A stretch of DNA of 64,000 nt. Origin: Paenibacillus massiliensis 2301065 = DSM 16942 (GTDB taxonomy: Bacteria; Bacillota; Bacilli; Paenibacillales; Paenibacillaceae). The stretch lies in the NCBI RefSeq assembly GCF_000377505.1, contig NZ_KB898185.1, positions 1 to 64,000 on the forward strand. Direction: 5' to 3'. A model generated the notes under the pieces. The model ran no database searches. It was not told where the DNA came from and worked only from the letters and a program-made list of their open reading frames with translations. The translations under genes and the position numbers were made by a program. Positions 16,397-30,053 of this stretch are shown here, in pieces. Each line of letters starts with the position of its first letter. The first letter of the stretch is position 1.

Positions 16397-16633
16397 TTAG
16401 GCCTTCAGCTGCGCCAGCATGCCTTCTCTTATCCGATCCGTAGCCTCTACCATGTTGCGCAAAGACTCTCTTGTCTCAGGTAATCCGCGTGTCTTCAGTC
16501 CACAATCCGGGTTGATCCAGAACAGCTTAGGGTCCAGTACCCGAAAAATAGCTTGGATATAACCGCTGCAACTGTCAAAATACCTGAATCCAAGCTGATC
16601 AAGTATACCTTCAAAGGAGACGTTCAGTAGCAT
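16397..16633 (-). pseudogene. metE: metE remnant (C-terminal end of cobalamin-independent methionine synthase)
   Basis: The last 50 residues read [13 protein letters not shown]...[10 protein letters not shown], the C-terminal end of MetE including the zinc-ligand Cys in NPDCGLKTR. Full MetE is about 760 residues, and only about 78 codons remain. The part before RVLDPK no longer resembles MetE, which points to a deletion or frameshift just upstream. No catalytic barrel remains, so it is not functional. Confidence 0.8.
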
Positions 16634-16667
16634 TTCATACTAGTTCCTCATCTCCTTCATTAATCCC

Positions 16668-16698
16668 ATTGACTGGGCGGCGTAACCCATGCTATATT
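16668..16698 (+). promoter_or_regulatory. Promoter of the hflX leader transcript
   Basis: TTGACT (16669-16674) and TATATT (16693-16698) are 18 bases apart. The start codon of the leader peptide follows 33 bases after the -10 box. Confidence 0.65.
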
Positions 16699-16730
16699 TG
16701 GTATACTTTTACATGAACGGAGGGTTAGGT

Positions 16731-16769
16731 GTGATACATTTTATCCGGATTCGCACTTTGCGTGGCTAA
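16731..16769 (+). CDS. Candidate ErmDL-like leader peptide MIHFIRIRTLRG
   Basis: Twelve-codon frame, GTG start, TAA stop. GGAGGG at 16719-16724 is 6 bases upstream, stronger than most ribosome-binding sites in the window. The first eight residues match the pattern M-x-H-x-[IM]-R-[IL]-R of the ErmD leader peptide, and R-x-R is the known macrolide-arrest motif of that class. It sits under its own promoter, upstream of structured RNA, a terminator and hflX. Function as a drug-sensing stalling peptide is inferred. Confidence 0.6.
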   Translation: MIHFIRIRTLRG

Positions 16770-17160
16770 TTTAGAACTTGCCCCAAGGATCTGCCCGTAG
16801 GCAGAGGAATCAGGATAGGTCTGTCCACTTACCCATTCTGCAGGGTTGCTAGCTTCCTTGTATATGACTTGAGGAACTGCGTCTCCCCTGCTAATGACGA
16901 GTCATAGCCTTCATCTAACGCTTCACGTCCAGGAATTCATTTGGTCCACGGATGATTATGCTTGCAATTCTAGTAAGCTGACTCCCCCGTATATCCACTT
17001 CTGGACTAGGCTTAGAATCTAAGGCTTATACAAAATAAGTAGCTGCTGGTTGTACAGTCACCATCTGGTGACCAACCTCCTTTGGCTATGCTACTCGTCT
17101 TCTAGGAATGTGACGGTATGGGTTCACTCCATCAACCAACTGATCTCCTTTTGCTTATGC
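16770..17160 (+). promoter_or_regulatory. Structured 5' leader of hflX
   Basis: About 390 bases between leader peptide and terminator with several hairpins: TCTGCC/GGCAGA at 16790-16805, CTTAGA/TCTAAG near 17010-17022, and GGTTG...TCACCA-TC-TGGTGA...CAACC at 17048-17077. I found no T-box or known riboswitch signature. On the opposite strand, 16764-16880 is open for 39 codons (reading PQVIYKEASNPAEW...), possibly a remnant of an older gene that I cannot identify. Confidence 0.5.
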
Positions 17161-17188
17161 ACACAGGCAGCCTTGCCTGTGTTTTTTT
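17161..17188 (+). terminator. Leader terminator (attenuator) before hflX
   Basis: Perfect ACACAGGCA / TGCCTGTGT stem with a four-base loop and a seven-T run. It lies 72 bases upstream of the hflX start and downstream of the leader peptide, so it would block hflX unless read through. Confidence 0.85.
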
Positions 17189-17260: not shown

Positions 17261-18541
17261 ATGAAAGAAAAGCGTAACAAAGTATTACTCGTAGGTGTTC
17301 AATTACAGCGGCAGACGGATTTTGAGTATGGCATGGAGGAGCTCGCTAATCTGGCGACAGCCTGCGATCTACAGCCCGTAGGAGAACTGACGCAAAAGGC
17401 TGAACGCCTTCACTCATCTTATTACATTGGCCGCGGCAAGCTTCAGGAGCTGCAAGCCATGCTGGAGGCACATGACTCGCCGACTGTTATCTTCAACGAT
17501 GAGCTCTCCCCCTCGCAGATTCGCAATCTGGAGGCTGTCCTCGACTGTCGGATTATCGACCGCACGATGCTGATCCTGGAGATCTTCGCTGAGCGTGCCC
17601 AGACACGTGAGGCTCAGTTACAGGTCGAGGTGGCTCGACTGCAATATATGCTGCCGAGACTCGTAGGCAGTCGTGAGAGCCTGGGACGCCAAGGGGGCGG
17701 GGCTGGATTGAAGAATCGCGGCTCTGGTGAGACTCGACTGGAGCTGGATCGCCGCCGTATTGAGGAGCGAATCACGATGCTTGAGGCAGAGCTCACGAAG
17801 CTGGCTGCAAGGCGTCAGCAGCTGCGTAAGCAACGCCGCAAGAATGAGGTGCCTGTCGTTTCGCTTGTAGGCTATACCAACGCAGGCAAGTCCTCGCTGC
17901 TGAACACGATGCTGGAACGATATCATCCCGGTCAAGGCAAGCAAGTCTTCGCACATGATATGCTATTTGCCACATTGGAGACCAAGTCCCGCAGCATTCG
18001 TCTGCAGGGTAATCGCTCAATCGTACTGACGGATACCGTCGGCTTCGTCAGCAGGCTGCCGCATCATCTGGTCAAGGCTTTCCGTTCTACCCTTGAGGAG
18101 GTTGCCGAGTCGGATCTGCTGCTGCACGTCGTTGACTCCTCTCACCCAGAACAGGAAGCCCAGATTCAAGTAACACGTCAGACCCTGCGTGAATTGGGCG
18201 CAGATCAGGTTGAGGAGTTGATCGTCTATAACAAAGCAGATCTAACCCATGAATCTTATCCTCGGATTGAGGGGGGTGCCATCTACCTGTCTGCACGTCA
18301 GGCCATAGGAATTGATGAATTATCGAGCATCCTGACCAAGCGCTTATTCCACGATGAAGTGCAGCTGGAGATCCTGGTTCCGTATGATAAGGGCCATATC
18401 GTCTCCTACTTCAAGAGCTATGCTGAGGTCACCTCGATGTCTCACGAGGAAGAAGGTACCCGGATGAGCTTACACTGCAGCCCGGCAGATATGGAGCGAT
18501 ACAAGGATGAGATCTTGATCTATGATCTTCCCTCTCAGTAG
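17261..18541 (+). CDS. hflX: Ribosome-associated GTPase HflX
   Basis: 426 residues: an N-terminal HflX domain (nucleotide-binding-like fold, about 1-150), a coiled segment rich in Arg/Glu/Leu with the glycine-rich GGAGLKNRG, then a GTPase domain with GYTNAGKSS (about 203-211), DTVGFV and NKAD. HflX splits stalled 70S ribosomes. Some Firmicute paralogues (HflXr) also give macrolide-lincosamide resistance. AAAGGA precedes the ATG at 17261; an upstream in-frame start would lie across the leader. Its leader architecture (peptide plus terminator) suggests antibiotic induction, as known for Listeria hflXr. Confidence 0.95.
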   Translation: MKEKRNKVLLVGVQLQRQTDFEYGMEELANLATACDLQPVGELTQKAERLHSSYYIGRGKLQELQAMLEAHDSPTVIFNDELSPSQIRNLEAVLDCRIIDRTMLILEIFAERAQTREAQLQVEVARLQYMLPRLVGSRESLGRQGGGAGLKNRGSGETRLELDRRRIEERITMLEAELTKLAARRQQLRKQRRKNEVPVVSLVGYTNAGKSSLLNTMLERYHPGQGKQVFAHDMLFATLETKSRSIRLQGNRSIVLTDTVGFVSRLPHHLVKAFRSTLEEVAESDLLLHVVDSSHPEQEAQIQVTRQTLRELGADQVEELIVYNKADLTHESYPRIEGGAIYLSARQAIGIDELSSILTKRLFHDEVQLEILVPYDKGHIVSYFKSYAEVTSMSHEEEGTRMSLHCSPADMERYKDEILIYDLPSQ

Positions 18542-29895: not shown

Positions 29896-30030
29896 ACAAA
29901 AAAAGCCCAGGAGTTAACTGCTGCTTAAGCAGTTCATCTCCCAGGCTTTTATCCCTCCGTGGCACAGCGCGATGCTGTGAGTTTTCTCTCGGACCAGTCC
30001 GACGCGAGCGCCGCGGAACCCTAGAAAACA
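29896..30030 (-). ncRNA. Guanidine-I riboswitch (ykkC motif) with terminator
   Basis: On the minus strand the conserved elements appear in order: CTAGGGTTCCG, CTGGTCCGAGAG, ACGGAGGGATAAAAGCCTGGGAG-like core (in 29928-30027). The final GCCTGGGAG is also the 5' arm of a terminator with CTCCTGGGC and TTTTTTT (29896-29949). Guanidine binding holds that arm in the aptamer, prevents termination and turns on ykkC-ykkD. Confidence 0.95.
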
Positions 30031-30053
30031 TTCATCATTCAATTGTCCTTTGA

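Follow-up and report, generated by a model that had tools for sequence, protein, structure and literature searches.

A conserved leader upstream of an HflXr-type gene in Paenibacillus massiliensis is very probably a drug-sensing transcription attenuator

The hflX locus and its leader

The window, the stretch of 64,000 nucleotides of Paenibacillus massiliensis DNA analysed here, carries on its + strand an hflX gene (17261–18541, ATG start at 17261) whose product, an HflXr-type GTPase of 426 aa, scores 442.7 bits against TIGR03156. The top PDB match of this protein is 8a57 chain D (420 bits; the next match scores 280), which we take to be Listeria HflXr. The genome encodes a second HflX protein on contig 3, 41% identical to the first, which scores 278 bits against 8a57 and up to 317 against other PDB chains. 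Judged from these bit scores, it is Listeria HflXr rather than housekeeping HflX that the window protein is nearer to: we class the window gene as HflXr-like and the contig 3 copy as the housekeeping hflX.

The region upstream of the gene, on the same strand, includes a sigma-70 promoter (TTGACT-18-TATATT with TG before the -10 box; 16669–16698), identified by its pattern and by 98% identity to the nearest relative; the boxes in other relatives, compared by eye, are similar (TTGCCA/TG-TAnACT). A ribosome-binding site, GGAGGG (16719–16724), assigned from the sequence and from folds, precedes a short open reading frame, or uORF (16731–16769; GTG ATA CAT TTT ATC CGG ATT CGC ACT TTG CGT GGC TAA). 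This has a GTG start and a TAA stop and encodes 12 aa, MIHFIRIRTLRG, with a +X+ stalling motif at R6-I7-R8. Between the uORF and the gene lies an intrinsic terminator, ACACAGGCA-GCCT-TGCCTGTGT-TTTTTT, with a 9 bp stem and a U6 tract (17161–17188, + strand), and the hflX start is 72 nt 3′ of it. Promoter, GGAGGG, 12-codon peptide, hairpins, terminator and hflX had all been pointed out in an initial annotation, and each is in place. The leader as a whole is more stably folded than its shuffled versions (z -3.97). The uORF stop and the terminator are separated by about 391 nt, compared to 88–427 (median 255) in relatives. In a stretch of about 1 kb, pattern searches alone retrieved one promoter (1.4 expected by chance) and one terminator (0.8 expected), matches at chance level, so that the case depends on comparison.

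Two other features were observed in the window. Adjoining the leader upstream (16397–16660, - strand) is a remnant with an in-frame stop and no intact gene, resembling the C-terminus of methionine synthase, presumably of the cobalamin-independent type. A guanidine-I riboswitch (RF00442, 85.3 bits) lies at 29936–30035 on the - strand.

Conservation and the switch strands

The HflXr subfamily is found in 10 of 75 genomes of a genus sample and in 231 of 396 of a family sample. Conservation was assessed in 117 upstream regions of HflXr orthologues from Paenibacillaceae. The leader is present in 116 of these and in none of 21 housekeeping hflX genes; the housekeeping copy in the window's own genome has no leader, and the leader covariance model finds a single copy in that genome. 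A simple pattern retrieves an R-x-R peptide in 92 of the 117 regions, and the covariance model matches 24 of the other 25. The terminator, with a U-tract before hflX, is present in nearly all of the relatives' leaders. Conservation of the peptide frame, on which the initial annotation had staked its proposal, is borne out: the frame is kept before HflXr orthologues and is absent from housekeeping hflX, and the RNA strands around the peptide, which are separately conserved, have the same distribution. Within the limits of sequence comparison, this conservation is decisive for the reality of the leader. In the nearest relative, whose HflX is 97% identical, identity is 98–100% for the promoter, uORF, 3′ element and terminator, compared to 81% for the 235 nt of a middle domain (16851–17085, + strand), and the leader is therefore, on this evidence, composed of two functional ends linked by a fast-changing domain.

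The 92 uORFs encode M-I-[DHN]-[FYW]-I-R-[VIL]-R or a sequence near it, and nearly all are preceded by GGAGG. Residue 6 is the first of the +X+ motif in 55 of 60 distinct uORFs. The initial annotation had matched the peptide to an ErmD leader pattern, M-x-H-x-[IM]-R-[IL]-R. Its R-x-R holds, at positions 6–8 as in ErmDL, but the pattern is too narrow at H3, most relatives having M-I-D-[FY]-I-R-V-R. Some hflXr leaders of genus g3 (L155, L163, L167 and others) carry K-x-R (MLYIKFRFTTLRG), which is still +X+. Arg8 is encoded by six different Arg codons across the uORFs, which indicates an amino-acid constraint, while Ile5-Arg6 is nearly always ATC CGA or ATC CGG, the stretch forming strand s1, which indicates an RNA constraint. 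The uORF is thus, as codon usage has it, selected both as peptide and as RNA.

All switch strands lie on the + strand. Strand s1 (AUCCGGAUUC, 16743–16752), the putative anti-antiterminator, covers codons I5-R6-I7 and pairs with 16807–16816, within strand s3 (GAGGAAUCAGGAU, 16804–16816). According to covariation and folding, s3 has as alternative partners s1 in the OFF state and s3′ (CUGAUCUCCUU, 17140–17150) in the ON state, s3′ pairing with 16804–16813. Strand s4 (AGGUCUGUCCACUUACCCAU, 16817–16836), in which GGTCTGTCC is conserved in the leader alignment, is predicted to pair with the SD/start region (OFF), the uORF SD region meeting ACCC at 16831–16834, or, on weaker evidence, with AUGGGU at 17118–17123 (ON). 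The hairpin P3 (UCUGCC-CGUA-GGCAGA, 16790–16805) is complementary, through its 5′ arm and loop, to the terminator: its conserved strand CUGCCYGU pairs across the variable domain with the terminator 5′ arm ACACAGGCAG. The initial annotation had proposed a covariation search for an antiterminator to ACACAGGCA; the window does contain one, as 16791–16798 (CUGCCCGU) pairs with 17163–17170 with one mismatch, a weak helix. The second antiterminator helix, 16804–16813 with 17140–17150, is the stronger. The s3:s3′ and P3:terminator arm helices are nested, and so jointly form one antiterminator spanning the variable domain, which measures 129–344 nt where both ends could be placed.

Own-partner duplexes were stronger than those with swapped partners (0/2000 permutations for s3:s3′, 4/2000 for s1:s3 and 7/2000 for P3:terminator arm). 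In a dereplicated broad set of 64 leaders including those of other genes, which leaves out the 26 loci without valid automatic uORF or terminator calls among the 58 of the wider search described below, z reached -16.0 for the uORF:s3 region and -8.3 for the s3:s3′ region, each with 0/5000 permutations; effects of relatedness remain in part in all these permutation tests. Compensating pairs can be read directly in the sequences: CCGAGU-type with ACUCGG (L009), CCGUUU with AAACGG-type (L167), CCGAUU with AAUCGG (L202) and CCGGUUU with AAACCGG (L201). The anti-antiterminator and antiterminator helices are mutually exclusive and supported by covariation. RNAalifold on a local alignment recovered P3 and a 4-bp SD:s1 helix and nothing else, since clades differ by one base in their s1:s3 register and s3′ falls outside the alignment. 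About 13 leaders (L061, L071, L078, L080 and others) combine R-I-R with GGACUC in s3; their s1:s3 helix is weaker (-6.9 kcal/mol) and their OFF helix may use a different register.

Folding, the proposed mechanism and its alternatives

The switch was modelled in silico by placing a ribosome footprint of 29 nt on s1, in transcripts that end after the terminator 5′ arm. In the free leader, the median over 77 leaders was 8.4 expected s1:s3 pairs and 0.01 s3:s3′ pairs; with s1 covered, the medians rose to 10.2 for s3:s3′ and 6.0 for P3:terminator arm. In the window's leader both of these values started at 0.0 and rose to 6.5 and 1.5, respectively; shuffling s3′ left 0.08 s3:s3′ pairs and shuffling the spacer 1.0, the latter mostly abolishing the switch, so that the native spacer contributes to pairing over the long range. 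The initial annotation, having found the peptide–terminator distance long, had invoked intermediate structures or a further frame. The extra length is a variable domain, which matters for the fold of the window's own leader; a further conserved frame is not needed. Covering the middle domain/spacer or the stop codon produced no fold switch in 26 leaders; covering the SD/start in these 26 also flips the fold, because the OFF helix reaches over the uORF SD, and an initiating ribosome might, in these models, mimic the signal. Among leaders not selected for hflX, 12 of 24 models switched, some of the 24 having wrongly called uORFs or terminators. In complete-leader folds with s1 covered, the terminator still formed in many models, which implies that antitermination must be kinetic, decided during transcription.

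We consider it highly likely, from comparative sequence evidence, that the hflX leader is a ribosome-mediated transcription attenuator which senses macrolide/lincosamide-type drugs and controls the HflXr ribosome-splitting GTPase. Without drug, the uORF would be translated to its end and its I-R-I codons (s1) would pair with s3; P3 would stay closed, the terminator would form and hflX would be off. With drug, the drug-bound ribosome would stall and cover s1, holding I7 in its P site and R8 in its A site. The released s3 would pair with s3′ once this is transcribed, leaving the P3 strand CUGCCCGU free for the terminator 5′ arm, so that the terminator would fail and hflX would be transcribed. 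Refolding past the terminator upon a stall at R-I-R, as the initial annotation had it, thus finds support in the covariation and in the models with s1 covered. The attenuator reading is also supported by the homologous leaders that precede other macrolide-resistance genes and by a logic matching that of the experimentally tested Listeria rli80 (PMC6310831).

A stall might instead act on translation, by exposing the hflX ribosome-binding site rather than by blocking termination. Translational attenuation is classical in ermC-type leaders and the hflX start lies 72 nt beyond the terminator, but the U-tract terminator before hflX in nearly all leaders, and covarying strands that target the terminator and the segment before it rather than the hflX RBS, make this very unlikely. 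It is highly improbable that the uORF senses charged tRNA-Arg: although three of its twelve codons specify Arg and trp/ilv-type attenuators use the same stalling logic, only the +X+ spacing is conserved, K-x-R occurs in homologous leaders, and the downstream genes concern macrolide resistance, not arginine metabolism.

The leader could also be a general sensor of translation stress, switched whenever initiation or elongation on the uORF is slowed or blocked, as the effect of covering the SD/start would allow; the strict +X+ at residues 6–8 suggests selection for that particular stall site and renders this more general reading unlikely. The least probable is a ligand-binding riboswitch or T-box in place of a ribosome sensor. 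The leader is long and structured, and segments of it are strongly conserved, but this conservation is centred on the uORF codons, the SD and the switch strands, and no Rfam 15 family exceeds its gathering threshold at the leader; T-box, riboswitch and other known Rfam identities were rejected on this ground. The drug-sensing transcription attenuator is the reading retained below.

A wider leader family and known systems

A leader covariance model, R1, built from 44 hflX leaders only, matched 106 of 399 sampled Bacilli genomes and 47 of 145 genera, the weakest matches including at least one false positive (one of E 0.0066 in G511, inside a gene, was rejected as such). There were also matches in a few genomes of the same phylum outside Bacilli, and in Geosporobacter (L211). 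Carriers include Paenibacillus, Cohnella, Brevibacillus, Kroppenstedtia and Bacillus paralicheniformis, where the leader precedes mph. Fifty-eight loci were taken without selection for gene content, eight of them same-genus places and several same-family places. The downstream genes encode Mph (16), Erm (12), HflXr (11), ABC-F (8, in two of which another frame precedes the ABC-F gene), macrolide esterase (3), LmrB-like (3), Mef-like (2), SDR (2) and other MFS (1) proteins. They were classified by similarity to representatives, nine being checked against NCBIfam, and as the representatives came from the same 58 loci, the absence of unclassified genes follows in part from this choice. Of 20 such loci, none matched an Rfam leader family at the element.

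These distributions point, probably, to one homologous modular leader RNA (uORF with +X+, P3, s3 and long-range antiterminator) by which most classes of macrolide/lincosamide resistance genes in Bacilli, and in some Clostridia, sense macrolides. These classes are hflXr, erm, mph, Msr-type ABC-F, macrolide esterases and mef/lmrB-like exporters; the RNA would have become attached to one gene after another, its strands coevolving in the process.

Several loci have particular features. A second terminator-like hairpin with a U-run (GAGGGGGACAGTCTACCCTCTTTTTG) is present in the middle domain of L157, L158, L169, L182, L183, L190, L197, L201 and L203–L206; these leaders belong to other resistance genes or, outside the family, to some hflX genes, and the hairpin suggests two terminators in series. 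In two genomes the leader precedes a short-chain dehydrogenase gene (NF006114; L178, L180), possibly with an unrecognised macrolide-resistance function. The esterase frame after the leader L186 (G736) is 122 aa long, compared to about 280 aa in the families, and is truncated or frameshifted.

The leader is real and conserved and, as far as comparative analysis can tell, very probably a drug-sensing transcription attenuator. This makes it very probable that drugs induce hflXr as a resistance gene in Paenibacillaceae. The switch model is testable strand by strand. The wider family would provide a single sequence/structure signature for inducible macrolide-resistance genes in environmental Bacilli, and this could reveal unrecognised genes such as the SDR and MFS genes found behind the leader.

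Literature searches found nothing specific on this leader in Paenibacillus; as far as searched, neither the switch in its detail nor the modular RNA family shared by these genes has been described, and both are absent from Rfam. The uORF resembles that of ErmDL, from the ermD/ermK leader of Bacillus licheniformis, in having +X+ at residues 6–8, the ErmDL system regulating an Erm methyltransferase where the window leader precedes hflX; the two were compared by peptide. The title of a 1991 report by Kwak reportedly presents ermK as a transcription attenuator. One leader found by the model (L189), before an ABC-F gene, encodes a peptide, MTHSIRLRFPTLN, near-identical to ErmDL. In ErmDL itself, the ribosome stalls at Arg6-Leu7-Arg8 when residue 7 occupies the P site (PMC8298421). 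The macrolide-responsive leaders of B. subtilis yxjB and streptococcal mef/msr(D) also act by transcription attenuation, and as far as the parts of these reports consulted describe them, they resemble the window leader in mode, their peptides and genes being unlike the window's (PMC6851288, PMC4335068).

According to the part of its description consulted, uORFC-6-1 is a predicted uORF motif with 51 representatives in Bacillales, which lie mainly before hflX and show Arg-Leu-Arg together with covarying RNA structure 3′ of the start codon; that text includes neither a long-range antiterminator switch nor erm, mph, ABC-F or esterase partners (PMC8632094). The Rfam copy searched yielded no hit; matched by this text description, uORFC-6-1 probably represents the same RNA family as the window leader. 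The Listeria monocytogenes rli80-hflXr (lmo0762) leader is a ribosome-dependent attenuator, as demonstrated by mutation, with an anti-antiterminator, an antiterminator and a terminator (PMC6310831). As described, it shares with the window an HflXr gene, a short uORF containing the anti-antiterminator, an antiterminator, a terminator and a second, uninvolved hflX copy (PMC6310831); its peptide has 14 aa with RLR, that of the window 12 aa with RIR. The kind of system is thus already known from Listeria rli80-hflXr, the predicted uORFC-6-1 motif and erm leaders, and novelty appears to lie in the bipartite long-range antiterminator made explicit here, in its covariation, and in the evidence for the same RNA element on many classes of macrolide-resistance genes.
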